A stretch of DNA of 64,000 bases. Source: Agrocybe praecox (lineage: Eukaryota > Basidiomycota > Agaricomycetes > Agaricales > Agrocybaceae). Under the pieces are notes generated by a model. The model saw only the letters and a program-made list of their open reading frames with translations, was not told the DNA's origin and did not search any database. Location: assembly GCA_964017145.1 (NCBI GenBank), contig OZ024847.1:2418001-2482000 (forward strand), given 5' to 3'. Positions 1 through 19,101 of this stretch are shown in pieces. The position numbers and the translations under genes were made by a program. How positions within the stretch are numbered: the first letter of the stretch is position 1; each line of letters opens with the position of its first letter.

Positions 1-520
1 CACAGTCAGCTCCACATGTAGATGTAATGTGATGAACGGGAAAGAGTCAGGGTTCGTTTCATAATGTAAAGACGGTCGCAGAACATACCTGTTTCGAAAT
101 ATTGATTCAATGCTGAAATGTGCGCAATTGAACCAATAATTAGCCTTCAGTAAGCTTGTGTTAGGGAAAGTTTGAAGATATTTAGCAGGGAACGAGCAAC
201 AGAAGGTAAATTCGATGTAGTTTGATTGAAGATGAATGAAGTCGTCAAACTTGAACTTGAAGAATCAGAATCTCCTTGTTGTGCGACACAGTCAGCACGA
301 CAATCCAACTCAGCGACACAGTCAGCTGAGTTGGCACAGAGCGACACAGTCAGCTCGGTGAGGAGAGAGGGGTACGATGAGAAGGACGACGATGGGTAAC
401 TGGTGGAGGAATGTCGGACCAGGCTAGCAATGAACTCGTTGTGCGACACAGTCAACACGACGATCCAACTCAGCGACACAGTCAGCTGAGTTGGCACCGA
501 GCGACACAGTCAGCTCGATG
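1..520 (-). repeat. Cluster of hairpins with constant cap CGACACAGTCAG
   Basis: Six full copies of the 12-mer start at 284, 314, 342, 444 (last base A), 474 and 502, and a clipped copy lies at 1-9. Each full copy is flanked directly by complementary arms of 7-9 bases that differ between copies. CCAACTCAG and CTGAGTTGG flank 314-325 and 474-485 (9 bp perfect). TTGTTGTG and CACGACAA flank 284-295. TCGTTGTG and CACGACGA flank 444-455. The 342 and 502 copies have 7-bp arms with one mismatch each. The block 284-360 is duplicated at 444-520. The 12-mer can fold further, GAC with GTC around a three-base loop and one bulge. An open reading frame crosses the cluster but has no recognisable domain and looks fortuitous. 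Function unknown. Confidence 0.85.
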
Positions 521-1447
521 AGGAGAGAAGGATGCGTTGATAACAATGGCGATGGGTGACGATGGGTAAGAATGTGGTGCAGGTGTTTGATAAGAAGTGA
601 AATTCGACTTGTAAGTTCATTTCAACTTCGGGCCGATGTTCTTATCTATTCTTATCACATTTTCTAATTTTATCCAGGTTATTTGTTTGCGGTAAATATC
701 CGTGACGCGTGACGTTTGTTGAACGCCAGCTCACACGCTCCTCATTGTTCCCTTCCTACTTCCAACCCTTCCATTTCTTTCTCTTTTTCAATACTTTACA
801 CTGCCCCACTGATTCCTGGTGGAGTCCAGTGGAGTCCACATAGTCCCATAGAGTCCAGTGGATTAGCACACTTTTTTTGCTGGATTCCACTGGAGTCTGG
901 TGGACTCTACTGGACTCCATCCAGAATCCTGTCAAACTTAGTGGAAACTTGCTGTTTGCATATTTTATGCAATGCCACTTATGTTAAAAAAACATAATAT
1001 TCACCAAACACATAAGGATCACACAAAAAACATATGAAAAAGCGAAATTTATTTAAGAAATGCTTAATATACATGATGTTTATATACTTATATTACTTAG
1101 ATAATTATTTTTAATTGAAGATAATGGGGGGATGAGATTATAGAAAGGGGAGCACAGGGAAGAGGAGATGGGAGGGGATATGACAGAAAGAAGGGAAGTG
1201 GGTGGGGAGGAGGAAAGGGATGGGAGGAGGGACAGGGGGCCCAGCTTGTTGACAGAGGCGGTGAGCGAGAACACGGATTGGACGGGGTACTTACCTTGTC
1301 GTCCTAAATGCCCCGCCTTGCCACGTCACGCCCTCGCCGGCCTGGCCCCCAATCCCGCCCCCTCGCGTTCGTCAGCTTGTTCGCTGGGATCCGTCGTCTG
1401 TTTCGCCATGCGCGTCCGTCGTTATCGTCGTCGGCGTTGTCGCCATT

Positions 1448-1682
1448 CAGCCATGTCAGTCACATTCTTATATGAAATGTTGGTAGTTGCCACACTTAGT
1501 GCATATATCCAGAATGGTACCTACCAGGTCTGGCAGTTGCCAGCCCCATCTGTTTCACTGTCCAATATTCCTGACTGGTCATGTGCTGTGACTGGTTGTT
1601 ACTGATTGCATCAAAATCAAAAGCATGACTTTTTGCTTGCCTCTATTTACACATTCAGGGTCCATTGCCACAATTTTATGGC
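1448..1682 (-). mobile_element. Nested partial copy of the hAT-like element found at 57195-58085
   Basis: From 1448 the sequence starts CAGCCATGTCAGTCACATT and then follows the inverted right end of the 57195-58085 element: a TTGGTAG stretch, ATCCAGAATGG, and a GGCAGTTGCCAG motif. It continues inward through the segment corresponding to 57862-57990 (reversed), up to the N run. The far end is not visible because of the gap. It is more diverged than the two arms of the 57195 copy are from each other, so it is an older copy of the same family. Confidence 0.7.
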
Positions 1683-1882
1683 NNNNNNNNNNNNNNNNNN
1701 NNNNNNNNNNNNNNNNNNNNNNNNNNNNNNNNNNNNNNNNNNNNNNNNNNNNNNNNNNNNNNNNNNNNNNNNNNNNNNNNNNNNNNNNNNNNNNNNNNNN
1801 NNNNNNNNNNNNNNNNNNNNNNNNNNNNNNNNNNNNNNNNNNNNNNNNNNNNNNNNNNNNNNNNNNNNNNNNNNNNNNNNNN
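1683..1882. other. Assembly gap of exactly 200 N
   Basis: The run of N is exactly 200 bases long, a typical placeholder, so the true distance is unknown. It lies between a repeat copy and a GTC-rich low-complexity stretch, the kind of sequence that breaks assemblies. Open frames that cross it have no meaning. Confidence 0.98.
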
Positions 1883-2340
1883 GGTGCGCCATTGTGGTTC
1901 GCAGGTTCGTTGTCGGCTGTCGTTGGCGTGTTGTCGTATCGTCGTCGCCGTGGCCATTGGCGTGTCGTCGTTGTCATCGGGTCGCCGTTGTCGTATCGTC
2001 GCCGCCCCGTCCTCGTGTCGTCGTTTATGTCGTCCCGGACGTTGGTGTCGTCGTGTCGTCTTCGTCGTCGTCGTCGCTGCCGTGCGTGTCGTTGCCGTGT
2101 CATCGCCGTGTCGTCGTCGCTGACGTGTGTGTCGTCGCCGTTTCATTGCCATGTCGTCGTTGGCGTCGTCTTCTTCGTCGACTCGTGGTTGTGTCGTTGT
2201 TGTCGGCATCGTTGCTGCCGTCGTCGTCGTTGCCATCGTTGCTGACGTCGTTGCTGACGTTGGCTGGCGTCGTCGCGGGCGTCGTCGTTGGCTTTGCGGC
2301 ATGGTGGGGACGGGATGTGGTGGTGGCGGATGGTGGGTAG
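1883..2340. repeat. Low-complexity GTC/GTT-rich tract
   Basis: Dense, irregular GTCGTC, GTTGTC and GTCGCC triplets run from the gap to about 2330. All three plus-strand frames stay open (Val/Ser/Arg-rich), and so does the minus strand (Asp/Thr/Arg-rich). This is what triplet-repeat sequence does and is not evidence of coding. The stretch 2341-2620 is AT-rich and shows nothing recognisable. Confidence 0.75.
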
Positions 2341-2966
2341 GTGGTGGTAGTGGTTAGGAAGCAGGGAGGCGTTGATGACGCGGCCAGGGCAGTGGGTTGT
2401 GGCTGTGCCGGCAATTTCCGAAGCGGCCCGGAAATCTATTTTGGGAATTTTTACAAAAACTGTCGTTTGTATGTCACACGGACCTCCTAAAATTATGAAA
2501 AAATTACGATAATTCACAATATATTCGAAATATATTTATCAAACATTAAATATGACGTAATATGTTACGATTTTGGCTGAAATGACAAAATAGCCATGAA
2601 AAAATAAAATAAAACATATCCTAGTCCAGATTGAGTCCAGATTGAATCCAGATTGAATCCAGTCCACCATATTCCGGTGCCGAGTCCAGTATGAGCCTCA
2701 GTCCACCCCCAATCCAGGTGGAGTCCGGTACTCGAGCTTGGCTGGGGCTACCAGCCATTTGGAAAAGTGCAAAAAGCACCAGACTCCACTGGACTCCGTC
2801 AGGAATCAGTGGGGCAGTGTAAAGCCCTCCTCTTTTTCCTTGTCTTTCTCGTTTCCCTGTCCTTCTTCTCTTTGCCTTCTCTTTCTCTTGTCTCACCCTC
2901 TACAATTCCGCCCGCCGGTACGCCTTTCCTTCAACCCTAACTTCCAACCACCATCCGGCGCAAAGT

Positions 2967-3056
2967 GGAGGAGCTGACTGTGTCGCTCCTCCCTTCTCCA
3001 GCTGACTGTGTCGCTGGAGAAGAACTTTGCAGGTCTGACTGTGTCGACCTGTAAAG
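2967..3056 (+). repeat. Second hairpin cluster, opposite orientation, constant cap CTGACTGTGTCG
   Basis: Three caps lie at 2974-2985, 3002-3013 and 3035-3046. Their flanking arms are GGAGGAG/CTCCTCC (7 bp), CTTCTCCAG/CTGGAGAAG (9 bp perfect), and CTTTGCAGGT/ACCTGTAAAG (10 positions, one G-T). The caps are identical to each other and are the reverse complement of those at 1-520. The arms have no similarity to one another. The cluster ends about 70 bp before the start codon of the 762-aa gene, so it lies in that gene's promoter or 5' leader. Confidence 0.88.
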
Positions 3057-3127
3057 GCTTTGCAATACTCCAACGCCGTTACACCGCCCAGTCCCTGACG
3101 TTCAGTGGCATTTCTCCAATCAGGATC

Positions 3128-5645
3128 ATGTCGGTTTCTTCAACTGCGACCAATGGTGCGTGTATCCTTTCATTTTGCCCGTTCAATTCACGGATCCATC
3201 GTTTTAGATACCTATGTCGACTGTTATGGAATCACTCGATACAAGAACACCAATCTTCCGAAGTTTACGCTAACTAGCCTCCAAAAATGTACGTTTCATT
3301 GCCCTCTTCATTACTATAACTTGGCTGAATTCTGTCTAGTCACCCTGCGCAGAACGGATGCTCTGGCAATCTGTGAAAGCAGGGGTCTTTCGTTCGGTAT
3401 CCCTGGTCTTCGAAGCTCCCCGTCAGGCCACGATGACAACGGCAACCCGATGCCCACATGCAGGATTATCACTTCGCCGAACGTAGACTGGATCCCAGCC
3501 CTTTCCCAAGTTGAAGATCAAATTTGCATGCACTCTGACGGCCGTTTTCATCTGGCCGACTTCACTCTGTTTCCACAATTCCACCATCCACGACTTCCTC
3601 ACTTGCCGTTCGTGCTGAAGAAACCCGACACAGACGTTTTGAAGGGCCATCCCCATTCCATCATTTGGTACGACCTCAAGTTCCAGGACTTCAAGCCTGA
3701 ACTCGGTTCACCTTCCTCGAAAGTGGGTCGTATTCACCGCGATCTCTGCGCAGACTTCCTCGCCATTCGCAAAAAATTACAGCAGCGAATCAGGGACGAA
3801 ATCGATCTCACCAAGCTTCCGAAGGACGTCCTCGACGCGTTTACGTGCAGCGAGCGCAACATGTTATTCCAATCTGTTGCTCTCGATTGCGCCCCTCAAA
3901 CTTGGATTGACACCTTGCTCACTGTTACCACATTTCAACGCCATTTTCTCGCTACACTCGCTTGGACCGACTACCTCGCTCGTTGGAGGGACCTCCCCAT
4001 TCTCGATAACGACAATCCTCGTCCCGTTAACACGGACCTTGTGGGGTGCATCACTCCAGACGTTGAAGTGGCCATTCACCACCATCTCTTGGGCTGCCCG
4101 GTCTGGCTGATGAGGGCACCAAATGCTATTGCATCTGACATCATCATTGTTTCTTCGACTTATGGGATAATCCCTGAAGGCATCATTTCTGAGCTTGTGC
4201 CAGAGGTGCCTCCCGTCTATGCCGGTCCATTTTGCGAGGAACGTCTCATGGCTTGCCAACATTTGCGACGCAGCGTCAACGTCAATCTCGGACACACCAT
4301 TATTTACCAGGGTACGTGATAAGATTTATTCACTCTTATGGATTTATTTTTACTAATCATACTTGCACAGTTCTTCCTAGCACTATGTCCACTCTTTCTC
4401 GGCCCGCCAGCTCGATTTCCACTATAGTAGGCTCTGCCTCGCAACCGACATCCTCTCTCGCCGCCGTTGTCCCACCTTCTCGAGATAGTGCTTTCTCCAG
4501 CGTACCTGTTCGCCTCGGTGCCCGGCAGTGTAACGACCAGAAGTTCGTCGATCCGGATTCGAAATGGTGTCCTGCCTTAATCGAAACTTGGAAAGATGCC
4601 CTTCGCCACGTCAACAGAAAGGTGACCCTCGTCAATCATCCAAATTTCGATCTTTTTCGCGGTTATGCTGTCTTCGATCCTTATGTTCTGGCCACCAGCA
4701 CGCTTTCCAACAAGCGTACTCTCGTTTACGTGGTTGTCTGGCTTTTTATCCGTGCTCTTTGGCTGCAGCGAACGATGAATCGTCGACCTGGTGACAACAT
4801 ACTTCCCAGTCCTCAAGATTGGAAGATATACTTAGCTGATCGTCTGGGTAACTCGATGGGTTTCTATGACAGACTTGATCTCCGAAATCGTACGTCTGTA
4901 TTTCATTTAATCTATTATTTACCATAATTACTTATGTTTTAATTTTCTATTATTAGGTCACTTCCCTGTAGCACCCACTCCGTCCAAAGCTTCTTCGGTC
5001 GCCACTTCCAGTGCTGCCAACCAGACGGCACCCCAACCTTCACAAACAAATCGCAAGGCGAAAGCAATGGATGCGCTTGATTCGAAATTCGGCCTTACGA
5101 TCGGCAACAACTCTCTTCCCGATGCTGTGTATTGGCGGGGCAAGGTTGTCGTGACGGGCGCAGGTCTGCGTTCAGGTGATGTTGGGATCACTGCCAATCT
5201 TGCTCGTGAAATTGTGTGGGATCTTTTCGAACACAATTTTCGACTTGAACTATTAGCTCTGGACCGTTGTCAGGTGCCTCGAGATGGTCTGACTGCCAAG
5301 TTGTGTGACGATCGAGATGCTCTCGTCACCGATTGTTTCCCAAGGCAAACTTTCGTCTCTGTCGAGTGGCCTACTTCGTCCGGAGGTCTTGGTGCGCGCG
5401 ATTACGCTGACCGAATGGAGTATGTTGAAGCCTTGCGAATTGTCCTTTCGAGTTGGAACGGGCCCAGGGCCCGGCGCCTGAAAGACATGAGGACTTTCAT
5501 ACGCACGGGAATAAACGGAACACGCATCTCATCAACCAAGGAGATGGTGGAGGCTGTCGAACGTGTGGCATACCCCTTCTACTGTCAGTCTTTCTATGAA
5601 TATTTTGGTCGTGCGCCCACTGTCCCACATGTCATGCCCGTGTGA
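3128..5645 (+). CDS. Five-exon gene of unknown function, 762 aa, Agaricomycete-type hypothetical protein
   Basis: Exons are 3128-3155, 3208-3288, 3340-4311, 4371-4889 and 4957-5645. All introns are GT-AG and 51-67 bp long, and the exon lengths sum to exactly 763 codons including the stop. Frame and phase agree at all four junctions, so the model is strong. I recognise no catalytic motif, signal peptide or clear membrane anchor, although a hydrophobic patch (VYVVVWLFIRALWL) lies in exon 4. The middle part has conserved-looking text such as TWIDTLLTVTTFQRHFLATL and GCPVWLMRAP. Exon 4 starts with a Ser/Ala/Pro-rich linker. It resembles, from memory, multi-copy hypothetical proteins of mushroom genomes, but I cannot name a family. 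A longer frame reaches back to 3008 into the hairpins; the start at 3128 is preferred because the extra residues are translated hairpin. Coding is undamaged, unlike many neighbours. Confidence 0.8.
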
Positions 5646-5975
5646 TATGCTTCTCTTCTTTGGTTCTTTGGGTCTTTGGTATGTTTTTGATATATCTTTG
5701 CTTTTATAATCACTTAACTTACTGCTCTCAACCAGCTGCTTTCTTGGTGTCATGCTATTTTAATATATTCCTTATCCCTGTAGTTTGTTTGTGTTTTTTC
5801 GTCTGCCATCGTTATACACAGGGATAATTCGTTTATATTAAACTTTTTTTGTACATGTCATGTTCTTTTTCTCACGCTGTCAATGTCATGTTTTGAACTA
5901 ATTATAGGATGTTCAACATATATAAGTGTGGTTCCAGGAAATTCTTATTCCCTGTTCCTCTTCCCACTCTTCGCT
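5646..5975. other. AT-rich spacer upstream of the KDZ gene
   Basis: No gene is seen. The stretch contains TCATGTTTTGAACTAATTAT near 5886, and a very similar stretch with the same GAACTAATTATAG recurs in direct orientation at about 9398-9410, downstream of the KDZ gene. These may be subterminal motifs of the transposon. No clear terminal inverted repeat was found. Confidence 0.4.
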
Positions 5976-8900
5976 ATGGTCTCATCATTCCGCCGTGTCC
6001 GCGGTAATGCTCAACAAGAATCTCAGTCTGCTGCACAGCCTCCAGCTCCAGTCTTTGTACCTGTTGCTGATGTACCAAAGCAGAGGAGACCTTACAACAC
6101 ACCAGATGCTATTCTTAGTGCACAAGGACTTATTCGTACCCCTTCGGGAATGTTTTCTCAGGTTGTAGCTCCTGGTACTGTGTCTAGTGCGGGAATCTCT
6201 GCAAAAGCTCTGGACCAACCTGTTGTACCTCCCACTTCCGAAACTACTCTTACTGTTGATTCAGAGAAATATCGAAAGAAACAACTCCAATGGCGTCGCT
6301 GGAGCGAGGATATTATTCCAGCATTGTTGGAACCTTATATGGAACTCTTGAATGAGTCATCTAGCCTGCGTAACTTGGAAAGTGTTAGGAGTAACAAAGG
6401 CTGTACCGGTTGCTCCCAAGGCAAAATATTAGAAGTAACTTGTGTTTTTTTTGAACATAAGTTATTTATATATACTATAAGAGTCTACTATTGAATATTT
6501 AATCCACATTGCAGAAATTGAAAAAATAAATCTTTGCACTTGTACTCAACCAGCTTTACAACTTTTATCTCGTGGTTTTTTCCCGTGTGCTCCATTGCTT
6601 CCAACTTTGGCTGTTGATCTTAATGTTTTGAACTTTGCACGCGATCTTTTTGTCAATGCTGCTCCAAATACAACAGCTTGGTGTGAGACACTGGAAGGAT
6701 TTCTTAATGCTCGTAAATTCAAGCTTAAAACCAGGGTATGAATATACTAATATTTGATTAACCTTAATCATTACTAAGTTTATTTTCTCATTTCTTATAA
6801 TATTCAGGATAGCTTGCGCACTAGATTTGGAAATGCCATGCATTGGTATGCAACATTGACAGATACCAAGAATTTGATGATGCGGGATTATCTTGACTCT
6901 ATACGAGGATCTATGTTGAATATCAATGATGATGATCTTCCAGAAAATGGTAATTCCTTCTTCTATCTCATAACATTTATTCTTATGCAATATTAGAGCA
7001 TTATATTCCTCGGTCTGTACATGATTTTACTACTGAAGAACCTCATGAAGGTTGTAAGTTATTTATTCAAATATTTTTCAATTTCCTTATACTTTCATAG
7101 CCAATCAAGTTCCTCCCTTGAATCGGCCAAGTGAATATCTACGAGAACGCTGTCCACTTTGCTTTGGTGGCCAGAATTGGAAAAAACCTGAGGAAGTGTA
7201 AGTTCAAATTTGAATTCAAGAACAAGTTATAAATTTAAATTATCCCAAAGTGTGGATTCAATTGTTTGTTTGGATGCATGTTTCACCCAAAAGCGTCGCA
7301 AATCTCAAACCGATGCTTGGACAGGTCCAAGAGCCCATCCTGAGACTGTTTTTATTGATCCTAAAGAAGCTAAAGCAATGGAGGACTATGTTGAAACAAT
7401 ACGACCGAGCAATAAATCACCAACAAAGAAGTCGAGCCCCAAAAAACCAGTTCAACCAGAGACTGTTGATCAATTTGAGACAGGAATGCGTGTCAGTGCA
7501 GCTATACTTGATGGATGCAATGAGTCATTTGTAGCTGCTGATTCTAAAAGAATCAAAGCTAGTACTTTATTTTTTGCAGATACTGGGCTCATGGCTTTAT
7601 TATGTCGACATGATCGTGTTCTTTGGTTGGTCAATATGACTTCAGCAGGCGAGAAACAGCATTATGCTTTATGTTTGCTGGATAAACTTTTTCAACATGT
7701 TCCTGATTCAATGAAGATTGGAGTTCTGTATGACATTGGATGTCAGTTGCATAGGAGTTGCAACAAATATGGATTTCTTGATGGTGTTTTGGACCGTATT
7801 GTATTTGGAATATCTGTATTTCATGCTTACGGTCATCAATGGCCTTGCCAGCTAATATATCATCCTCGAAAGTGTGAAGGTTTTGGATTAACCGATGGTG
7901 AAGGCTGTGAACGGTTTTGGAGCTCAATTAAGGCTTTAATTCCTTCATGTCGTGTTTCAGGCTATTTTAATCGAATTTATACAATTGATACCAAAGTAAA
8001 ACATCTTGATTCAAAATCACTTCTTGGGTTGGGCCAATGGATGAAGCGCAAATGGAATAATGCAGTCAGTAGAAAGTCTGCCGCTGAAATTATTCTAAAT
8101 GAGGTTTACAATGAAGGATATACAAAGGATATTTTAGCTGAAGAATGGGAAAATCAAATTGTTGAACAAACAAAACCTCTTCAAAAACAATCAAAAAATC
8201 TAGCCAATAAATCAATTGAAGAAATCCTCCTATTAGAGCAACACCTTGAGCAATATACTGCAGAACTGGATAAATTCAATACAATGATTGAAGAAAGTCA
8301 CTATAGTGATGGTCATGATCTTTATAGTGCACAAGAGGCTGTCACTGATATTGAACTTAAATGTCAAAAACTTCAGAAATCAATTTCAAATAAACGTACA
8401 AGATTATATGTTAGTGATAAGGCCAATCTGGCTAAATTGATTGGAAATCAATTTTTACGCATACGAGTCAATGCTTTGGCATTAAAACAAAGAATACGTG
8501 AACGTCTACGCCATAGGAAATTTGAGCTTGAAGTTATGGAACGTGCATATAGAGCAACTGTAAATCGAGCCAAGCTTGAAAAGCATGCTGAGCAGCAAAT
8601 AAGGCGAAAAGAGCCTGGAATTCAAAGTTTGGCAAGAAATTATAACAAACTATGTACTGAGTTAAATCAATTGATTGCAAAATGTAAATGCCCCAAAGGA
8701 GCACGTGCACCATTGCCAATAGAAGTTGAAGGACTTTTTAAACTTGATATTGATGATGATATCTGGCAAGATATTGGATTAACAGCTGAATATGATGATG
8801 AAGTCAATATTCCATTGTGGCTTGGGGATGACTTTGTTCGTAAAGGTATAAAAGCATTGTTGGATGTAAACCGATGTGATGAGGAACAAAGACGATTGGT

Positions 8901-9303
8901 ACAAGAGAAACTATCCATGCAGCAATGGTTGCAAGAGGAATGGTCTTTGATCAATGAAGCTATCAGTATATCCAAGGAGGATCCAAACATTGTTCAACAG
9001 CTTATAGAAAGAAAAAAATATTTGTTACGCATTTGTGCTGTTTGGGAAACTGGAACACGTATAATTCCAAGTAAACAAGCTGATCTTTGGGGTCCAACCA
9101 ATGCTGAAATTGCTGAAGCACGCATATATGAAACAACTGAAAATGTCTTAATTATGGGAATGGATAATGAATATGAAAGTGATAGTGATGCATATGAAAT
9201 GAATTCTGATGATGAAGAAGAGATAAATAATGCTGCATTATTGGATGAGATGGAAATGGATATGTCTCATCTTGGAATAGGTACAGAAAGCGAGTATGAT
9301 TAA
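5976..9303 (+). CDS. KDZ (Kyakuja-Dileera-Zisupton) superfamily transposase with CxC zinc motif
   Basis: Proposed exons are 5976-6434, 6484-6735, 6808-6949, 6997-7053, 7101-7197 and 7251-9303, which sum to 1020 codons. The first junction is the least certain. The start at 5976 opens a basic N-terminal segment (VSSFRRVRGNAQ) that fits this family. The zinc cluster is visible as ERCPLCFGG in exon 5. The catalytic core begins with IVCLDACFTQKR across the exon 5-6 junction, then KIGVLYDIGCQLH, FHAYGHQWPC, and TDGEGCERFWSSIKALIPS, all hallmark KDZ blocks. Later parts are helical and charged, and the last ~50 residues are acidic (EYESDSDAYEMNSDDEEE). It would act in the nucleus to cut and paste its own DNA. 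The 697-residue last exon is unbroken, so the gene may be functional. It is the only recognisable autonomous DNA transposase in the window and does not share ends with the non-autonomous elements. Confidence 0.9.
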
Positions 9304-9606
9304 ATCTGTAGTGTTTGAAATCTGTATTAAGTATGATATATATGAGAAATTCATACTAGGACCCCAAGAACTCCTTTAATAAAGTAATGTTTTGTGTGAA
9401 CTAATTATAGCTAACAGAATGTTTTCAATGACAGAAAAATATTATGAAGTGATATAATATTATTGAAAAAATGTTTTAAAAAGAAATGTTTTGTAGAAAA
9501 TGTTTTGGACCAAAAATGTTTCTAAAAAACATTATCATAGGGTCTCTTGGGTCTATATCCTATCAGGAATTAAATAGTCTAAGAGGTCTTGTCACTGGTT
9601 CACTGA
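9304..9606. repeat. KDZ 3' flank with repeated AATGTTTT motif
   Basis: The octamer AATGTTTT or a one-base variant occurs at 9386, 9418, 9470, 9485, 9499 and 9515, all in the same orientation, within 140 bases. Clustered short repeats near an end are typical of DNA transposons with subterminal transposase sites. The right end of the KDZ element probably lies between 9521 and about 9600. Confidence 0.45.
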
Positions 9607-11273
9607 AGTGAATTCGACTCTGAAAGTGGCGAGTCCGACGACTCTGAAAGTGGGGAATCCAATGATGACAATGTCCGAATACCAAAAGACATTCCCTTCG
9701 GCCCCAGGGGCAGTGTTGGCGTCGGCAACAAAGTCCCTGCCATGAAAAGGACTTCTTGTGCTCAGAAGTTGGACTCTGAGAGCAACAGCGGCACTGCGGA
9801 TGGAAAGGAGGACCCAGGGGAAGAGAGCGAGCAGCAAGCTTACTTTTCGGATGGTGCAGACGACACTGGTGGAGCTGCTGTTGCGAAAATAATGTCCGAT
9901 TACGAGGATGATAGAGCTGTTACCACGAATGGTGCCGTTTCCTACAGCGAATCCGACTTGGACGATCCGGAAGATGTCGTCGAAGTCCCTTTCATAAAAA
10001 GGACTTCCTCCCACAAATTCGACGACAAAGCTGCCACAATGAAACACCACTCCTCCGATAGAACCGATATGGACGTTTCAGACGATGTCGGAAACAATAC
10101 TGGTTGTCAGCTGGGATCTGAGTCCGAGGGAGGTGAAGAAAATAGTCGTAAGCCAGTGGTTGCCAAAGAGCGGAATTTTGGACTCGGGATATCAGATTCC
10201 GGTGCGAGCATGTGTGGTTAAGAGTGTCATTTTTCTTCTGATTATTTTAAGAAAACAGACGAAAGCATGGTCTTGATTGACGAACTGTGTCCTCATCAAA
10301 AAAGTGGGAGGAAAGGTAATAATAAATTTCCTCCTCAACTATATTATTGTTGAGCGTATATCTGGCACTGAACAAAATTCCCTAGTGCGAAGACGAAAAA
10401 GAAAAAGGACCCACCGTGAAGATCAGAGAAAGAGTGAGCTTCTCTTTTATTATGTGGGGATACCCTAAATCGTCTAATTGAAAAATAGGGAGAAGGAAGA
10501 ATTACGTCGATGAGGACGTTGATAGCTACTCTTCGGAATCCGACGAAGAGGAGCCGCTGTATCGTTCGTTGTCCTCAAGTGAGAAAAAATGGTGGAACAG
10601 TGAGCACCTTCTACCAAGCGTTATTGTTATTGGTGATTTAGTAACTGGTCATAAAGAAAAAGGTGCCGCAGCAATAAAGGACTTTCAAGAAACAGGCCAA
10701 CCATTTCCTGATATTATCGTGTCAATGATTCATCGTGATCAAACTTACCTGCCCCAGATAGCGACGACTTCCAGAGCGGTTGCCCTAATGGCTTTGCGCA
10801 GCAGGCTCGGGAACTTTACCTGCTTGTATCACTACCTCAAGGATAAGCGTTGCAACAAATCGGAACGAATGGAACGGAAATACAAGATTACGGGGAAGCC
10901 AGGCGAACAAAAATATGCGCGCTCAAAACAAGAAATAGTGACTTTGGCGCCCGGCATCATGAATTGCGGATGCACCGTCGAGAGCGCACTATGGGACCTA
11001 TTCATATGGAAAACATGGTTTGTAAAAGAGCGGGTGAATGGTTCGGAAGTCGTGGAATCTCTCGAAGATGCACTTCTGGAGCCCCGTATTCGAACATTCA
11101 TAATCCACGCATGGAAGCGAGAGGGCTTCAAACTTGATGATATCTACACCAATGGGTTAACTGAAGTCGGCAACAAAAGGCGCGTCACAAAAAGGCGCTT
11201 GGATAATTTATTGGAAACTTACAACTCTCTTTCGAATGACCACCAAGCCACTTTAGTGCTTGATGATTATTGA
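9607..11273 (+). CDS. Unknown protein, acidic N-terminus, basic patch and CGC-motif C-terminal domain (family member A)
   Basis: I do not recognise this gene. Readable segments are an acidic, Ser/Asp/Glu-rich part (9607-10218, with repeated SESGESD-like text), a short exon around 10250-10315, a basic exon with RRRKRKRTHREDQR that could be a nuclear localisation signal (about 10382-10432), and a last exon from about 10490 to the stop at 11271-11273. An intron of GTGAGC...AATAG (10433-10489) fits. The junction near 10219 could not be resolved in frame, so either an intron is misplaced or there is a lesion. The C-terminal domain contains MNCGCTVESALWDLFIWK, a pattern shared with the genes ending at 21629 and 29073. 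There is no start codon upstream of 9607 in frame, and the KDZ flank abuts it, so the 5' end may have been lost to transposon insertion. Confidence 0.5.
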
Positions 11274-12455
11274 ACGGGCATCGGTTTTTTAGTGTGCCAA
11301 GGGTGCTCGAGCGTGGCATGCTCCTGGCACACTTGACAATTTACTATTCCTATGTATTTATGTAACTTGAATGTTAATGAAGTATACTGGCCTGTAAGCT
11401 ATACCACGAGTCTCATTCAACGTTGTACTGTCACTGGTATGTGGAATACAGATTTTTACTTTTGTATGGACCGTGGGAATTTCGACTTGTTATTATATTA
11501 TTATAATTTCACTCTGTAGAGCGAAGTATAGGGTGGAAAAGTCTTGTAGAGACGTAATATATATCTCCCCACCTCACGTAGTTCGTACTATTATTTTGAG
11601 GGCCATTCACTGCGACCTTGACCTACTAAGACATCTTCACGGCACTTTATGACCTTTGGGAACTGTTTTGAAGAATCGAGTTGTTTCAAATTTGCAGTTT
11701 TCTAGACCCGTGACAGGCCGTTATATGGGGTGTTGAGCAAATTTTGTATTTTACTGACCTGAGTGTGCAGTAAAATGCAATATATCACGATCACGAATGG
11801 TTGTAAAATACACTGCCATGTTGCACTGCCTTGATGCACGCTCGTGCACTTGGGCACACGCTGCCAAATTTTTGGCAGGCTCGTCAGAATCGCACGCTTA
11901 TGGACAGATCTATAGAGACACCTAGTGGTACCGGTTCTTTGCTTGGCGTAGCCCTTCTGCTGCAGGTCCGAAATTCTGAAATTTGATACTGGTACAGCTC
12001 AAGTAAATTACGTCAAGCACATTGTGGCACATCAGTTATTGATCCTAGATACATGATACCGACGCTCTGCTGAGTTGCTAATGTGTACAGGTAATATTTT
12101 TCGCACTATAATACAGGTGCCCTAAGTTAACTGCCGGGTTCTAGTATGTACAGGCCTAATTTCCACTAATCATATCATCATGTTCGTACAATTTAACATG
12201 GTGACAGAAAGATCATAATCATGCAAGTGTTATATACTTCTCTTACTTCTCTTACTCTAAGCCTCTAAGCTTGCAGCAAGCGTGCAAAATTACTTTGATG
12301 TGCTCTTTGCACGCTAAAAGTCGGAAACGTGCATAAGCGCGGCACGCTCCGGCACACCGATTTCTGTTGGCCCTTATTAAACGGGTATCTGGATGGGTGT
12401 ACATATCTCAAATGAATGAATTACGATTGCATTGAATTTTGTCATGGTATGAAAT
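11274..12455. other. Intergenic, possible degenerate TIR element with GTGTGCC motifs
   Basis: There is no coding signal over 1.2 kb. A stretch with GTGTGCC and GAGCGTGGC at 11300-11335 is loosely mirrored by GGCACGCTCCGGCACAC at 12341-12357. Further GTGCAC or GGCAC motifs lie between them (11830-11885). This could be an old non-autonomous element of about 1.06 kb, but no target duplication is visible and the arms are short and imperfect. Confidence 0.25.
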
Positions 12456-12816
12456 TGTTACGACACAAGCCGTTTCGTATGTGTACAACTCCCAGAGTTT
12501 ACACTGAAGAAGGCTATAGTCGTAGGTTCTTAGTTCTTCGTTCGAGTTTCGAGTAATGAAACTGTAGTATTCTCAAGAACTAGTTAAAGAACAAGAGAAC
12601 AATCGTACTACGTATTTATAAGTAAAGGACACGAGGAATGGGCACAGTAAAGGTGCGGTAAACATTCGTAAGAAATGAGGAAAGAGCACCATAACGGTGC
12701 GGTGATCGTTCGATAAGAAACACACTATGAAGGTGTGGTAGTCGTTCGGTGAAGGCGAGGTGATGAAACAGTTAAAGAAAATGAAAAAGAGTCGGCTAGC
12801 GCGTGTGTTCGTAACA
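12456..12816 (-). repeat. 3' LTR (361 bp)
   Basis: The copy is identical to the right-hand LTR except T/C at 12505, A/G at 12664, A/G at 12691 and C/T at 12743. All four are CpG in one LTR and TpG or CpA in the other. The ends are TG...CA. The left flank GAAAT is the target duplication. Confidence 0.97.
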
Positions 12817-12829
12817 TTACCCCCGTTCT
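12817..12829 (-). promoter_or_regulatory. Polypurine tract of the Ty3 element
   Basis: Read on the minus strand, the sequence just before the 3' LTR is GAACGGGGGTAAT. A short purine-rich run next to the LTR is where plus-strand DNA synthesis starts in this class of element. It is short and interrupted, so the exact primer is inferred. Confidence 0.55.
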
Positions 12830-12974
12830 AGATCGAAGATTCCAGATTCGATTAGAATTGGTGGGATTGGTAAGGACAATCTCGCCTGAGATGTCCGGTT
12901 CGTCGGCAGTTGTAACATGTCGGGGTTGCGTTTCTTCGGGGTCGAGGTCGAAGGGTGTATGGATGAGGTAGTCC

Positions 12975-14158
12975 TCAAAATTGTCGAGGACCATTTGGTG
13001 GTACTATGGTTTGTCGTGGTTCGGAAGGTCGTCGATCCTGTTGTCGTTGTGGTAGGTAAGGCGGCGGGAGTTCGTTGTCGATTATGGGTGTAGGTTCTGT
13101 TCGAGTTTCATTGCTATGTGTTCCAGATGCGTCGGTGCCAACGTGGCTGGGGAATAGAGTGCGAAGGAACTGTCGATGATTTAGTGGACGAGTTGGTGTT
13201 TCAGAAAGTCTTGCTAGTCGTCTGAAGGTCCCGATGTCGAGAATAGAGGGAATCGATTCTGGTTGTCGTTCAGGTTCGGGTCGTGGTTCATCGGGTTCTT
13301 CGTTGTGTTGGTCGACGATGATAAATGGAACAGAGGGGGTTCGACTAGGGTTCGGATCAGGAGTTTCTTCGTTGATGACGTTCTTCGGGGGGGTTCGTAC
13401 GTAGATGTCGGTGTCGTCGTCTGGGGAGGGTTCCCTTGTGTCAGGGAAGGTGATGGGGTTCGTCGGATGTCCGGATGGGTAAGGAGAGGGTACGTTCCCT
13501 CGGATCGGTCGGTGTTCGTTGGCATAATAGGCCCTTCGTTGTTCCCAGAAATTCTGGGTATGGTTGCCTAAACCTTCCCAACAAAGAGCGTCGAGACGAA
13601 GGGCAGCGAGTCTTCGGAGTTCGTTTAAATGTTTTGTTTGTTGGTGGATTTCGTTTTCGATGTCAAGGAGAGTGGCCAGGGAGTCGTTGTATCGATTTAG
13701 AGGAGCGACTAGGTCAAAAAGAGCTTGCCGGTCAAGGAAACTTTGAGAGGAATGATGGAATTCGGTGTAACCGATGACGAAGTTGTTCTGTGCGTTGTAT
13801 TGGGCCATGGTAAGATCGAGAGGATGATTTAGTAGTAAAGCGAGTATCGTTGGTAGTGGATTCGGTTCTGGGTTGTAAAGACAGGAATCATCCTGCTTAT
13901 ATGTTCTTCTTTGATCGATTCGAGTTTGGGTATGAACTTCTTGAATGGGATTCTTCGGTTCTTGCGTTTGCATGGAGGTGGGAGTGGAAACTCCTTGTCG
14001 AATATCAGGCTGACTTGCCTTGCTTTAGACGTGTGGTGGAGTGTCCGCGTTTCAGTGATCCAATCGGAGAGAAGGGTCGAAGTTCTAAATGAAAAAGGGT
14101 CGTCTTCCAGTTGTTCGTGAAACAGTGATAAGTTTTTGAGGTTCAGTTCGTCGTGCAT
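12975..14158 (-). CDS. Post-Pol open reading frames of the Ty3 element, unknown function
   Basis: Two overlapping frames follow pol: 13829-14158 (109 aa, basic) and 12975-13973 (332 aa). The larger probably starts at an internal Met (MAQYNAQNNFVIGYTEF, codon near 13808), just after the first frame stops. Its first half is helical, with text such as HHSSQSFLDRQALFDLVAPL and SLATLLDIENEIHQQ. Its second half is Pro-rich and acidic and carries ELPPPYLP, a PPxY motif of the kind bound by WW domains of NEDD4-type ligases. There is no transmembrane segment or signal peptide, so it is not a typical envelope protein. The two frames may be joined by splicing. Some fungal chromoviruses carry such extra frames, but I cannot name a family. 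Confidence 0.6.
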
Positions 14159-14198
14159 GGTAAACGTGTGTCGTGGTTCGAGGTGTGAGGTGTTCGTT

Positions 14199-17100
14199 TT
14201 AGCGAGTGATAGGAAGTCCGTTCCGTTTTTGGTATTCGTTCAAAATCTTTCGTCCGGTTGATCCGAACATCTCTTGGGGTTCCCATGAATTGTTGCTGAC
14301 GGAGTAACCGGCCCATTTGACGAGGTATTTATATTTTTGGGGTTTTCCTTTCTGGGGTCGTCCTTGTTTTCGGTGTGATTTGATCGCTTCGATTTCGTAA
14401 TGTTCTTCTTCGTTAATGATTTCCGGAGGTGGTTCCGGGAAATTGGGTCCATAGGTTTCGTTTTCGGTATAGGGCATGAGGAGGGAGGCGTGAAATACGT
14501 TGTGAATCCTCCAGTTCTTTGGTAGTTCAAGTTTGAAGGACAGGGGTCCTTTAATTTCCGTGATTTTAAAGGGTCCTTCTCTCTTCGGCGAGAGTTTCTT
14601 GTTGCTTCGTGTTTTCAAGTTTCTAGAATCGAGCCAGACTTTCTGTCCGAGTTTGAAGGTGATTGGTTTTCCTTTTCTTCTGGCAAGTATTCGTGCTCGT
14701 GCTAGTTCGTGTGCCACGTGGGCTTCTTCTCGATCTCGTGCGAGATTCTTCAATCTTTCTTCCACGGAGGGAAACTTCGTGTTTTCGAAGGTCGTTGGTA
14801 TGGCTAGGGGTTCAATTCCTAGCATCAAAGCAAATGGTGACTTCTGTCTATCTGAGTGTTGTCTGTCGTTATGCGTGAATTCAAGCGTGGGGAGAGCGTC
14901 CTTCCACGTTTCGGGGTTCGCAGAACAAAATATCGCGATATACGCTTCGATTTCTTGGTTGAATCTTTCAGTGGTTCCATCGGCCTGTGGATGATAGGCG
15001 GTCGTCAGTTTTGATTCGATTCCTAGTTGTTTTAGGAGTTCTCTGAATGCTTTCGCGGCGAATTGCGGTCCTCTGTCGGAGATCATTGAGTCCGGCAGTC
15101 CAAATCGTTTGTAAAGGTGTTCGATCAGGAGCTTTCCTGCTTCTTCTTCTGTCAAGGTTTTCGAGCAGGGGATGAAAATTGCCCCCTTCGTAAGTCCGTG
15201 GTCCACCACGGATAAGATCGAGTCGTACCCATCGATTTCGGGTAAATCGGTGATCATATCCATAGAGCAGTTTGCAAACGGTCTGTTCGATTTCGCGCCT
15301 TTGATGGGTTGGAAGGCGGGTTTCGTTGGATTTCTGTTGATTTTGAATTGTTGACAAGATCCGCATCCTTTCACGTAGTTCTTTACGAACATACGCATTC
15401 CGGGCCACCAATAATGTTTTCTGATGGCATTAAAGGTTTCTATTTCTCCGGGGTGTCCGGCGGTCATCGTATCGTGGTAACTCTTCACGATAGTTCTTCT
15501 GAGTTCTGCGTCGTTGGGAATATAGTTTTTCCCTTGGTAGAAGAGTATGTTCTTTCCCTGGAAGTCTTCTACCGTCCAGTCGGCGAGTTTGTTATGGAGT
15601 TCGGTCGGTCCGGTTTCTAGCAAGAGTTTTATCGCATTTGCTGCGTCTAGATCGAGTTTATCAGAGTTCGCGATTCTTTCTTGAAGTTCGGTGTCAATTA
15701 AATTGACAAACAAGTTCTCTGGGAGTAGGATCTTGTTTTCGTTGTCGTGGTCCTCTTCGGGACATAAGTCTGGTCTTCTGGATAATGCGTCTGATTGCAC
15801 CATCTTCGTTCCTGGGGTGTGTACGAGTTTGATATTGAACTCTGAGAGGTATAAGGACCAGCGTGCTTGTCTTCTGTTCAATTTCTGGGCGCTTCTGAAA
15901 TATGTTAGGTTCTTGTGATCAGATAGAATGGTTGTTTCGAAGGAGGATCCTTGGATGTAATGTCTCCATTCTTGTAGAGCTCGGATGATCGCTAGGAGTT
16001 CTCTGTCGTAGATTTCGTAGTTTCGTTCGGGTTCATTAAAGGTTTTCGATATGAAGGCGCAAGGATGGCGGTTTCCATTGTTATCTAACTGGGTGAGTAC
16101 TGCCCCTGATGCGTATTTTGATGCGTCGGATTCAATTTGGAAAGGTTTCGTAGCGTCGGGCATCATTAGTACGGGTTCTTCAGTGAATTTCCGTTTGAGG
16201 GAATCGAACGCTTTTTGGGCATGATCGTTCCAAACGAATGATTTTCCTTTTTGAAGGAGTTCATTTAGAGGTTTGGCAAGGTCAGAGTATCTTCGAATAA
16301 ACTTTCTGTAAAAGTTTCCAAATCCTAGAAAGGACCGTACTTGTTTTACGGTTTTCGGGATTGGCCATTCGCTGATTCCTTTCAATTTTGTCGGGTCCAT
16401 AGAGATTTTTCCTTCTTCGATGATCATTCCGAGGTAGTCAATTTTGGTTTTTGCAAACTCGCATTTCTCGGGTTTGAGAAAGAGATCGTTTTCTTGAAGG
16501 CGTTGGAGTACCTTTCGGGTGATTTCGTCGAGTTTCTTTTTGTCTTTCGAGAAGATAAGAATGTCGTCCATGTAGACTACGATCAGTCCTTCGGAAATCA
16601 TGTCTTTGAAAATGTGGTCCATCATTGCTTGGAAGGTAGCCGGGGAGTTGCACATTCCAAAGAACATAACAGTGGGTTTGAATAATCCTCGGTTAGTTTT
16701 GAAGGCGGCTTTCCATTCGTCTCCTTTTTTGATTCGAATATTGTTGTATCCCCATCGGACGTCCATTTTAGTGAAAAATTTAGCTCCTTTGAGCTTGTCC
16801 AATAGTTCGGAAATGAGAGGCAGAGGATACGCATTCTTGACAGTCCATTCATTCAGGTAACGATAGTCTTGGCAGGGCCTTAGTTTTCCGTCTTTTTTTG
16901 ATACGAAGAAAAATGGTGAGGCCATTGGTGATTTCGACGGTCGAATATATCCTTTGGCCAGTTGTTCGTCTAGGAAGGTATCTAACTCCTTCGTTTCTTG
17001 TGGGGTGAGGTTATACGATTTGAAGGATTTAGGTTCGAACCCTTCCTTCGTTTCGATTTTATGGTCCCAAGGTTTCGATGTGGGGAAGCGGTTCGAAGCT

Positions 17101-17795
17101 TCTTCATCGAACACTTTGAGGAATTCGTGGAATTGTTTCGGGACGATTTCCTTCGTTGGTTTCTTTATTTTGACTTCTTCGTGTTTCTGTGCAAGGGTTT
17201 GGGAGGCGGTGGTTTTCGCTCTGATCCATTCGGGTTCGGGAACTTCTCCGTCAATGAATCGGAGGAGGAGGTCGAGATCATTCTCTTCTTCTATCTTGAA
17301 CTCTTTTCTTGGTTTAGTCTTCTTCACGAAGATTCTTCGGGTTTCTTGGGTTTTGACTCTCCAAGAGACGTGACCGGTCTCCCAGTCGATGATCGGGTTG
17401 TTTTCTCGGAACCAAGGTAATCCGAGGATGATTTTTTGTCGTCCTAGTCCAGTGCAGTAGAAGGATTCCCATTTGGTTCTCCCGCCGACGGTCATGAGGA
17501 TTTTGACATAATGAGTGATTGTTCCTTTTTTGTTAAGGGTTCCGTCCACGTTATAAACATCGAGTGCCTTTTTCAGGGCTATTTTCGGAATTTTTAATTT
17601 CCGACGATATTCTTCATCAATGAATTTGCCGGATGCTCCGGTATCGGCGAGTGCTTCGGTTTGTTCGGCGATTTTTGACGTACTTGTGGTAAAAGAAATC
17701 GGAATGTATAGAGATTTTTTATCTATGCGAGCGACAAGTACGTGTGAAATATTAAAAGAGGGAGAGACTGACGCCGGGGCAGATCTCCCTTTCAA
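14199..17795 (-). CDS. pol: Pol polyprotein: protease, reverse transcriptase, RNase H, integrase, chromodomain
   Basis: The frame is 1198 residues. The aspartic protease site DTGAS is at residues 51-55. Reverse transcriptase runs from about 240 to 470, with FTKMDVRWGYNN (motif A, Asp 345) and YMDD at 408-411. RNase H follows, with FQIESDASKYASGAVL. The integrase has a zinc motif (H...H...CGSCQQ) and DDE residues seen in the VVDHGLTKG, ISDRGPQF and TTERFNQE blocks. A C-terminal chromodomain (YLVKWAGYSVSNNSWEP) fits targeting to methylated histone H3. The frame opens exactly where a -1 shift from the end of gag would enter it (TTG at 17795), so it is most likely made as Gag-Pol by frameshifting, not from its own start. 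All catalytic residues are present. Confidence 0.95.
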   Translation of the reverse strand: MKGRSAPASVSPSFNISHVLVARIDKKSLYIPISFTTSTSKIAEQTEALADTGASGKFIDEEYRRKLKIPKIALKKALDVYNVDGTLNKKGTITHYVKILMTVGGRTKWESFYCTGLGRQKIILGLPWFRENNPIIDWETGHVSWRVKTQETRRIFVKKTKPRKEFKIEEENDLDLLLRFIDGEVPEPEWIRAKTTASQTLAQKHEEVKIKKPTKEIVPKQFHEFLKVFDEEASNRFPTSKPWDHKIETKEGFEPKSFKSYNLTPQETKELDTFLDEQLAKGYIRPSKSPMASPFFFVSKKDGKLRPCQDYRYLNEWTVKNAYPLPLISELLDKLKGAKFFTKMDVRWGYNNIRIKKGDEWKAAFKTNRGLFKPTVMFFGMCNSPATFQAMMDHIFKDMISEGLIVVYMDDILIFSKDKKKLDEITRKVLQRLQENDLFLKPEKCEFAKTKIDYLGMIIEEGKISMDPTKLKGISEWPIPKTVKQVRSFLGFGNFYRKFIRRYSDLAKPLNELLQKGKSFVWNDHAQKAFDSLKRKFTEEPVLMMPDATKPFQIESDASKYASGAVLTQLDNNGNRHPCAFISKTFNEPERNYEIYDRELLAIIRALQEWRHYIQGSSFETTILSDHKNLTYFRSAQKLNRRQARWSLYLSEFNIKLVHTPGTKMVQSDALSRRPDLCPEEDHDNENKILLPENLFVNLIDTELQERIANSDKLDLDAANAIKLLLETGPTELHNKLADWTVEDFQGKNILFYQGKNYIPNDAELRRTIVKSYHDTMTAGHPGEIETFNAIRKHYWWPGMRMFVKNYVKGCGSCQQFKINRNPTKPAFQPIKGAKSNRPFANCSMDMITDLPEIDGYDSILSVVDHGLTKGAIFIPCSKTLTEEEAGKLLIEHLYKRFGLPDSMISDRGPQFAAKAFRELLKQLGIESKLTTAYHPQADGTTERFNQEIEAYIAIFCSANPETWKDALPTLEFTHNDRQHSDRQKSPFALMLGIEPLAIPTTFENTKFPSVEERLKNLARDREEAHVAHELARARILARRKGKPITFKLGQKVWLDSRNLKTRSNKKLSPKREGPFKITEIKGPLSFKLELPKNWRIHNVFHASLLMPYTENETYGPNFPEPPPEIINEEEHYEIEAIKSHRKQGRPQKGKPQKYKYLVKWAGYSVSNNSWEPQEMFGSTGRKILNEYQKRNGLPITR

Positions 17796-17801
17796 AAACC
17801 C
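17792..17801 (-). promoter_or_regulatory. Predicted -1 ribosomal frameshift site GGGTTTT before gag stop
   Basis: On the minus strand, gag ends GCG GGT TTT TGA. The heptamer G GGT TTT (17801-17795) fits the X XXY YYZ rule for -1 slippage. After the shift the next codon is TTG at 17795-17793, which is the first codon of the open pol frame. The heptamer directly abuts the stop codon. Whether a stimulatory structure follows was not tested. Confidence 0.7.
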
Positions 17802-18910: not shown

Positions 18911-19089
18911 GATGATTTTGGGAGTAACGGGAGTAGTTTTTGTGAGTGGAGAGAGTATTGGCGATGCTTCTCCGGAGGGAGGAGGGGTTTCTTCTTCTTT
19001 CTGAGTCCTTGGCGTTAGCCAAAGTTCTTCGTGTTTGGTTGGAATGGTGGGTGGTCTCTACGTTCAAGCTTGGTAGAGAGAGTTTGGTG

Positions 19090-19100
19090 AACTAGTTCTT
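19090..19100 (-). promoter_or_regulatory. Self-priming site (PBS) next to the 5' LTR
   Basis: There is no TGG-type tRNA primer site after the LTR. Instead, one base in from the LTR edge, the minus strand reads AAGAACTAGTT. This is the exact 11-base complement of AACTAGTTCTT inside the same LTR (19231 down to 19221). Tf1 and related fungal elements prime with the first 11 bases of their own RNA in this way. Confidence 0.8.
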
Positions 19101-19101
19101 T

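Follow-up and report, generated by a model that had tools for sequence, protein, structure and literature searches.

Fixed-tip Hairpins in Described Systems

In bacteria, the hairpins of the Csr/Rsm system and its sponge RNAs present a fixed apical GGA motif on unrelated stems, occur several to an RNA, and are read by a small RNA-binding protein. The iron-responsive element, the Smaug site, the MS2 operator, and the Roquin CDE are each read by a protein that recognizes a bulge or loop, the stem sequence being largely free, and the CDE has a small triloop closed by a C-G pair. In autoregulated introns such as that of yeast RPL30, the product of the gene controls splicing through a structured pre-mRNA site. 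Hairpins of a different kind are found at the ends of IS200/IS605 elements and of Helitrons and other rolling-circle elements, where they serve HUH enzymes on single-stranded DNA.

The hairpins described here come from a 64,000-nucleotide stretch of Agrocybe praecox DNA (the window) and share features with each of these systems. As in Csr/Rsm RNAs, a fixed apical motif is carried on unrelated stems, several per RNA, but the hairpins belong to a eukaryotic transposon, lie in predicted introns, carry a triloop and bulge instead of GGA, and have a putative reader. The likeness to the iron-responsive element, Smaug, MS2, and CDE sites lies in a bulge or loop on a largely free stem and, for the CDE, in the small triloop; unlike those sites, the hairpins form intron-housed triples and have other loop letters. 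The RPL30 structure is single and abuts a splice site, whereas here three hairpins lie ~48 nt away, in two transposon genes, and regulation is putative. With the IS200/IS605 and Helitron hairpins they share the tie to a mobile element, and with those of IS200/IS605 an extrahelical base, but the transposase is of the KDZ type and the hairpins are mid-element. No known RNA family of Rfam 15 matches at gathering score in the window; a tRNA search of the window found none. No description of such hairpins appears in the titles and abstract openings of the literature searched, the word "hairpin" does not occur in the main text of PMC12730594, and neither "hairpin" nor "stem-loop" occurs in that of PMC12810828.

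Hairpin Triples in the Window

Each hairpin has a variable stem of ~9 bp and a single bulged base on its 5′ side and is topped by GAC/GTC and a triloop; a 12-mer forms the tip. The earlier note had counted ten copies of this 12-mer, one of them clipped, and the count is confirmed: eight exact copies, one with a single mismatch (444–455), and one clipped at base 1 of the window (C8:2417998), all within positions 1–3056. The window also holds three two-mismatch matches, far from the ten. RNA folding returns the fold proposed from the letters, GAC pairing with GTC around TGT with one T bulged. The hairpins are grouped as triples, three consecutive hairpins per unit, as follows.

Positions 1–18, minus strand: triple T3, first hairpin clipped (cap remnant 1–9 and one arm); the remainder extends beyond the window to C8:2417930.
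Positions 273–364, minus strand: triple T2a, caps at 284–295, 314–325, and 342–353; 88.8 bits under a covariance model built from these same triples.
Positions 433–524, minus strand: triple T2b, caps at 444–455 (one mismatch), 474–485, and 502–513; tandem duplicate of T2a.
Positions 2963–3057, plus strand: triple T1, caps at 2974–2985, 3002–3013, and 3035–3046; RNA fold −56.6 kcal/mol, z −8.67.

Counting the clipped one, nine copies are exact, and in eight of these at least six of nine arm positions are Watson-Crick paired; the clipped copy has four Watson-Crick pairs and two G·T pairs. An unbroken arm of at least 7 outside the 12-mer (G·T allowed) is present in six of the nine complete copies. 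Spacerless arms of 7–10 bases, as first described, are therefore found at most copies but not at 284, 342, and 444, which have an internal mismatch in the arm. The copies had also been treated as single hairpins; the hairpins are real, but they are organized as triples, and because T2a and T2b are tandem duplicates, the ten copies stand for about seven distinct stems.

A Kyakuja-like KDZ Transposon

All ten copies lie inside one element of about 15 kb, whose KDZ domain, terminal repeats, and target duplication mark it as a Kyakuja-like KDZ DNA transposon.

Positions 1–9610, plus strand: part of the KDZ transposon within the window (whole element C8:2412565–2427610, with terminal repeats and target duplication).
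Positions 3128–4319, plus strand: gene p1, downstream of T1; likely start codon at 3128, open frame 3207–4319, 370 aa, no Pfam family.
Positions 7210–9303, plus strand: KDZ transposase open frame (PF18758, E 3.4e-62).
Positions 9544–9610, minus strand: right terminal inverted repeat, followed by the 7-bp target duplication AATTCGA.

The inverted terminal repeats (C8:2412556–2412631 and 2427544–2427616) are 84% identical. A second end-to-end copy is found at C2:3709752–3746876, and the repeat alignments in the two copies span 76 and 117 bp. The element ends are CA…TG, and the 7-bp target duplication is AATTCGA at C8 and AGAAGCG at C2; the sequence is equally compatible with a duplication of 8 bp if the right end is taken one base shorter. 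According to Kojima 2025 (PMC12730594), two Laccaria Kyakuja families have CA…TG ends and a 7-bp target duplication and are without terminal inverted repeats. The present element has the KDZ transposase domain, the ends, and the duplication length in common with the Kyakuja lineage and differs from those two families, as described there, in its terminal inverted repeats, for which reason it is termed only "Kyakuja-like".

In a Pfam scan of eight element open frames, only KDZ scored above the cut-off; the other frames have no family, and neither a TET/JBP domain nor a recognized RNA-binding domain was found among the frames scanned. For p1, neither the protein collection (1205 candidates, E ≤ 0.001) nor the PDB (E ≤ 1) yielded a relative, and a single-sequence AlphaFold model (pLDDT 32.5) has no usable fold.

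In both end-to-end copies, the hairpins are >4.7 kb from either terminus and the terminal repeats are without hairpins. The earlier note had suggested a recognition hairpin for a nicking enzyme, as at rolling-circle origins; this mid-element position and the KDZ transposase type speak against a rolling-circle, nicking, or IS200-like site.

Genome-wide Triples and Stem Covariation

All results are from one genome, in which the exact 12-mer occurs 34 times, against four for a reversed-pattern control. The genome-wide check of flanking arms that had been proposed bears the hairpins out: at least six of nine arm positions pair in 26 of the 34, compared with 1.2% of random positions, and the eight others comprise three isolated matches, in line with chance, and five inside triples with poor or interrupted arms. 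Copies without arms, which the earlier note had named as refuting, are limited to the isolated three and a few decayed ones. Patterns that specify only the tip, leaving stems free, recover 24 distinct triples, where each pattern would be expected to yield about 0.12, and 21 of these lie in loci that also encode the transposon p1 protein.

The proposed covariation test was run on 19 of the 20 tabulated triples; C2_T3, in which an insertion cuts the third hairpin, was omitted but is retained in the table of 59 hairpins. Double changes are seen in 24 of 36 pairs (157 cells), and the score is 0.628, a value reached in 0 of 500 shuffles, which give 0.172 (sd 0.015), although p-values are optimistic because the element copies are related. 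Sliding the pairing partners by 1–3 columns lowers the score to 0.09–0.18. Ten previously unused middle hairpins are Watson-Crick paired at 70 of 80 stem positions, against 35.0 (sd 5.8) when shuffled. The hairpin structure is well supported, and the excess of compensatory changes over both controls makes a well-supported case for a conserved structured element. The original observation of a fixed tip on unrelated, self-complementary stems is upheld and extends across the genome.

The tip is conserved better than any other part of the unit. Most element copies have a single tip or nearly so, and tips differ from lineage to lineage; an exception is at C2:2530–2533 kb, where the gene-proximal triples have ATT tips and the middle triples AAC, ACG, or AGC. 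Tips, triple count, and spacing are kept in copies whose p1 proteins are only 31–49% identical to that of the window, and with the compensatory stem changes this persistence disposes of the suggested filler laid down during snap-back repair; covariation likewise rules out simple duplication. Searches by tip, de novo, and by covariance model, which covered only 7.5–9 kb upstream, found no triples at the three KDZ loci where p1 was not found (L064 on C3, L067 on C5, and L068 at C9:742 kb). A further locus without triples, L065 (C148), is uncounted because it ends before the p1 and hairpins of that element.

That the pattern reflects chance, an assembly artifact, or repeat duplication might be suspected from the tandem T2a and T2b copies and a 200-base gap nearby. 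We consider this wholly improbable, given the number of triples relative to expectation, the differences in tips and stems among elements, the target duplications flanking both end-to-end copies, and the covariation.

Predicted Introns Around the Gene-proximal Triples

Each of two divergent genes has a nearest triple, and in four element copies this triple sits in sense orientation within an intron predicted from consensus and conservation. These hairpin-bearing introns are ~190–240 nt long, with a usual spacing of ~48 nt from the 5′ splice site and ~65 nt to the 3′ splice site. In the window, the feature is as follows.

Positions 2918–3123, plus strand: predicted 206-nt 5′-UTR intron around T1; 5′ splice site GTACGC, 48 nt upstream of the first stem; branch-like CTGAC; 3′ splice site CCAATCAG, ATG at 3128.

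The T1 intron of the C2 copy has the same geometry, and the 5′ splice site GTACGC is weak in both C8 and C2. The motif GT[AG][ACT]G[ACT] lies 45–50 nt before the first stem in seven of eight T1/T4 triples (background 2.2%), and a 3′ splice site with a branch-like site lies at 54–76 nt in seven of eight. Both features occur in six of eight (background 0.125%) compared with none of ten other triples tested, over distance ranges that were chosen after inspecting these introns and in a scan of 18 of the 20 tabulated triples (C2_T3 and C2b_T4 left out). C276_T1a has no CTRAY branch site, and the spacing in C9_T1 is 72 nt. At T4, the reading frame is open, in phase 2 across the predicted splice, in all four copies. 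Among previously unseen copies, GTAAG or GTATG is at the predicted distance in three of eight T1/T4 candidates, with about 0.2 expected, and is absent from that spot in five; the two pattern searches used gave two unrelated matches each (controls, 0 and 2). One GTAAG match, C2:3716993, is on the strand opposite a T2 triple.

The near-constant distance of the intronic triples from predicted splice sites suggests an RNA signal. Hairpin introns of 191–236 nt are long next to the 54 and 55 nt of two ordinary introns predicted in the same gene, and the hairpins could merely shorten or tidy them, letting the host spliceosome bring the splice sites together. Bridging of this kind requires stems and no fixed tip, however, and it leaves triples outside introns unexplained; we regard it as very unlikely.

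Strand Preference and the Site of Action

Sense RNA folds better than its complement in nine of nine intronic triples, compared with five of ten others. Distinct G·U and A·C sites number 16:4 in intronic triples and 8:14 in the others (one-sided Fisher p 0.005, again optimistic for related copies); G·U bias within the tip was set aside because changes of GTCG to GTTG or GTCA also fit CpG decay. All three capped hairpins are present in only 13 of 19 minimum-energy folds. Eleven of the 20 tabulated triples (T2, T3, and T1b) are outside any recognizable intron. As a class they have no sense preference, and T2 leans toward the opposite strand (distinct G·U to A·C sites, 3:8).

These latter triples speak for action as DNA, in which the transposase or a partner protein would bind mid-element hairpins, extruded or single-stranded, that serve as a promoter operator, an internal enhancer, or a site of replication or resolution. 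Antisense strands of the triples also fold significantly, both strands fold well, the layout is roughly symmetric about the divergent promoter, and T2 is in tandem duplicate, as is often seen for regulatory DNA sites. A DNA site would not be expected to show near-constant intron geometry, however, and the hairpin-free terminal repeats, the inward position of the hairpins, and the preference of intronic triples for the sense strand and G·U pairs also count against it. We judge this reading unlikely and action as RNA likely.

An RNA could also act in trans. The product might then be the excised hairpin introns and leader triples themselves, which as small structured RNAs would titrate or scaffold a protein in the manner of Csr/Rsm sponges. 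The arrangement, three like tips per intron of both genes and further triples in the leader region, is that of a titrating RNA, but a free sponge has no need of a near-constant splice-site distance, though a stable lariat might, and we hold this to be improbable.

Proposed Role in Splicing

The reading that we prefer, with roughly even confidence, is that the hairpins are a cis-acting pre-mRNA element of the KDZ transposon through which a tip-specific, probably transposon-encoded reader controls splicing. The hairpin units would fold in the pre-mRNA, and a putative protein, most likely one that the element itself encodes, would be specific for the bulge and triloop and bind three tips simultaneously. 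Binding would repress or license splicing of both divergent transcripts, and splicing control could in turn provide feedback control of transposition. The non-intronic units T2, T3, and T1b may be extra binding sites in leaders or in the divergent promoter. Of the three explanations in the earlier note, an RNA element with a loop-binding protein is best supported, by the predicted introns, the sense orientation, and the G·U preference of the gene-proximal triples, with the reader itself still putative.

To our knowledge, self-limitation of DNA transposons after transcription is poorly understood. It is conceivable, if doubtful, that a cut-and-paste eukaryotic transposon here carries its own RNA-level feedback switch, in which the encoded reader of intronic triples adjusts splicing of both genes and, through coevolution of tip and reader, each transposon lineage would recognize solely its own transcripts. 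Given the strong covariation, the structure will probably stand even should the proposed function fall. If the proposal is true, the hairpin code, a fixed tip on a free stem, three per predicted intron, with a lineage-specific tip, would be a model for the coevolution of an RNA signal and its reader, whose specificity could be tested with natural tip variants within one genome. Fixed-apex hairpins are known from bacterial and viral regulation, and this would be a further, eukaryotic case, housed in introns.

Hairpin Structure and Covariation

The earlier note described ten copies of a 12-mer at window 1-3056, each capping inverted arms of unrelated sequence. The window corresponds to C8:2418001-2482000, and the KDZ and gypsy elements and short predicted introns in it would fit a basidiomycete. 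All ten are present: CTGACTGTGTCG is exact in eight, carries one mismatch in one and is clipped at base 1 in one, and the copies are grouped as triples, that is, three consecutive hairpins. A search of the 59.17-Mb, 347-contig genome bears out the arms beyond the window, with 34 exact copies of the 12-mer versus 4 of its reversed control, and inverted arms with at least six of nine Watson-Crick pairs at 26 of the 34 versus 1.2% of random positions. Among 59 hairpins from 20 triples, Watson-Crick pairs number 55, 58, 58, 53, 53, 50, 44, 41 and 39 at stem positions 1-9 and drop to 18 at position 10, giving a stem of ~9 bp. Above this stem, a single base bulges on the 5' side, and a 3-bp top (GAC/GTC) carries the triloop. 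Stem positions 1-8 are Watson-Crick in 412 of 472 cases, compared with 204.9 (sd 10.5) when right arms are shuffled among hairpins. RNA folding of seven triples yields z scores of -4.2 to -8.7 for the sense strand and also -3.2 to -9.3 for the antisense strand, and the minimum-energy sense fold contains all three capped hairpins in 13 of 19 triples.

The stems covary. In an alignment of 19 triples, 24 of 36 pairs have changes on both sides, double-change cells number 157 (44.4 shuffled), and 94.0% of cells pair (70.6% shuffled). The covariation score is 0.628, compared with 0.172 (sd 0.015) for shuffled alignments, and was reached in none of 500 shuffles; sliding the partner by 1-3 columns gives 0.09-0.18. 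Because this alignment itself defined the structure, the middle hairpins of ten previously unused triples provide a cleaner test, and there 70 of 80 stem positions are Watson-Crick versus 35.0 (sd 5.8) shuffled.

Host Transposon

The transposon that carries the window hairpins spans C8:2412565-2427610 (window 1-9610 and beyond). It encodes a KDZ transposase, has CA...TG ends with inverted terminal repeats and is flanked by the 7-bp target duplication AATTCGA. A second copy, C2:3709752-3746876, has the target duplication AGAAGCG and a nested insert of ~23 kb. Two gene blocks diverge: p1, a transposon-encoded protein without a Pfam family, and the KDZ transposase lie on one side, and a gene encoding MPPKRK...RPRGRPPK, which we take to be an AT-hook-like motif, on the opposite side. 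The triple nearest p1 is termed T1, the one nearest the AT-hook-like gene T4, and the remainder T2, T3 and T1b. The CA...TG ends and 7-bp duplications match those given by Kojima 2025 (PMC12730594) for two Laccaria families of Kyakuja, in which inverted repeats are reported as absent; the present element differs in having them and is therefore labeled only "Kyakuja-like". Further features of the window and the two copies are as follows.

Window 795-2823: ~2-kb insert with inverted ends TTTACACTGCCCC..., a TCG-rich interior and a 200-base N run (1683-1882); separates T2 from T1 in the leader region; absent from the C2 copy
Window 9544-9610 and C8:2412565-2412631: terminal repeats with their own palindrome, CTCTTAG ... 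CTAAGAG around TTCCTGATAGGAA, unrelated to the hairpin tips
Window 12455-19462, minus strand: gypsy-type retroelement with flanking 362-bp direct repeats (98.9% identity) and, by eye, a chromodomain-like C-terminus
C2:3717732-3740868: the nested ~23-kb element, with 548-bp inverted ends, CA...TG ends and 7-bp duplication GTGCTGA; inserted into the third hairpin of T3 in the C2 copy

Tip Families and Distribution

The 12-base tip differs among element copies. The copy at C9:1174-1184 kb has its own tip, CAGACTGTGTCG, on new stems, and the C276 tip reads TGAC-ATC/ATT-GTC.

Tip features by element copy
C8: triloop TGT in 15 of 15 hairpins
C2: triloop TGT in 15 of 17 hairpins
C9: bulged A in 12 of 12 hairpins, triloop TGT in 8
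C276: triloop ATT or ATC in 11 of 12 hairpins

Searching for three GACNNNGTC tips at suitable spacing, with stems unspecified, returned 25 matches when the base preceding the first tip was T (control 1) and 2 when it was A (control 0), with ~0.12 expected by chance per pattern; dropping three matched on both strands leaves 24 distinct triples. A two-tip pattern gave 69 matches versus 5 in the control; 57 of the 69 coincide with these loci, and 12 (chance ~6) do not. Twenty-one of the 24 triples are in p1 loci; the other three, at C276:4.6-5.6 kb, are 10 kb from the nearest p1. Among ten loci with p1 relatives (11 rows, two being one locus), the pattern search found tips within ~2 kb at seven and none at C276:15866, C8:1702549 and C10:2307623. 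All three loci without a pattern match have in-frame stops, as does one tip-bearing locus (C9:1176192). The genome holds at least 176 KDZ domain matches, and no triples were found at three KDZ loci where the 7.5-9 kb upstream holds no p1.

A diverged relic at C2:2895.7-2896.4 kb, minus strand, has two tandem hairpin clusters that score 30.8 and 25.5 bits with the covariance model. The exact 12-mer sits on a 10-bp stem in one of them, and no KDZ match lies nearby among the matches listed. Where tips end in GTCG (C8, C2, C2b and C9 copies), several changes are GTCG to GTTG or GTCA, the kind of change that CpG decay in a methylated transposon would produce.

Predicted Introns

T4 is inside a predicted phase-2 intron of the AT-hook-like gene in the C8, C2, C9 and C276 copies, and in each copy joining the exons leaves an uninterrupted reading frame. 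T1 is inside a predicted 5'-UTR intron that ends shortly upstream of the ATG. Seven measured hairpin introns (C9_T4 left out) span 191-236 nt; two ordinary predicted introns are 54 and 55 nt. All eight T1/T4 triples are in sense. In seven of them GT[AG][ACT]G[ACT] lies 45-50 nt upstream of the first stem, and in the eighth at 72 nt (background 2.2%). Seven also have a 3' splice site accompanied by a branch-like CTRAY 54-76 nt after the last stem, C276_T1a lacking the branch site. With distance ranges picked post hoc from the intron measurements, both sites are found together at 6 of 8 T1/T4 triples, 0 of 10 other triples tested and 0.125% of random positions.

In further elements, the triple nearest either cluster end was taken as a T1/T4 candidate (n=8). 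GTAAG or GTATG, the only 5' sites searched, stands at the predicted distance in three (C276:5558, C276:3422 and C2:2532843; ~0.2 expected) and is absent there from five. These searches also recovered five known T1/T4 triples, one site on the strand opposite to a T2 triple and four unrelated places (controls 0 and 2).

RNA or DNA

Distinct G.U and A.C stem sites number 16:4 in intronic triples and 8:14 in the others (one-sided Fisher p 0.005), and folding is better in sense than in antisense for all nine intronic triples, the C2b_T4 fragment among them, and for 5 of the 10 others (Mann-Whitney, one-sided, p 0.0005), both p-values being optimistic because the copies are related. A DNA role for the hairpins is possible; the G.U excess and better sense folding of the intronic triples favor action of T1 and T4 as sense RNA. 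T2 leans the opposite way, with G.U to A.C at 3:8 in the tip's sense, and on the minus strand at C2:3716993-3717090, opposite to the tip, GTAAG precedes a T2 triple at a distance like that in the predicted introns; T2 may thus be read in the other direction.

A Proposed Reader

Hairpins that combine a fixed apex with a free stem are already known, as in Csr/Rsm, IRE and MS2. We found no account of triple hairpins in DNA-transposon introns in the literature searched, which takes in a minority of subscription papers and may not include the original KDZ description. In the element at C2:2530-2533 kb, the triples at C2:2530634-2532915 fall into two sets: ATT triloops occupy the two nearest the genes, and AAC, ACG or AGC the two in the middle. 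This difference speaks against a single reader there, and gene-proximal and middle triples may follow different rules. A Pfam scan of eight element open frames, in which KDZ alone passed the cut-off, and searches for relatives of p1 (none at E <= 0.001 among 1205 candidate proteins, none at E <= 1 in the PDB) did not identify a tip-reading protein. The hairpins could possibly be a titrating RNA. For a protein reader, a tip nearly constant within most elements, on free stems and changed between lineages, points to one that changes with the element: a transposon-encoded protein would bind the bulge and triloop in the pre-mRNA and control splicing of both gene blocks.
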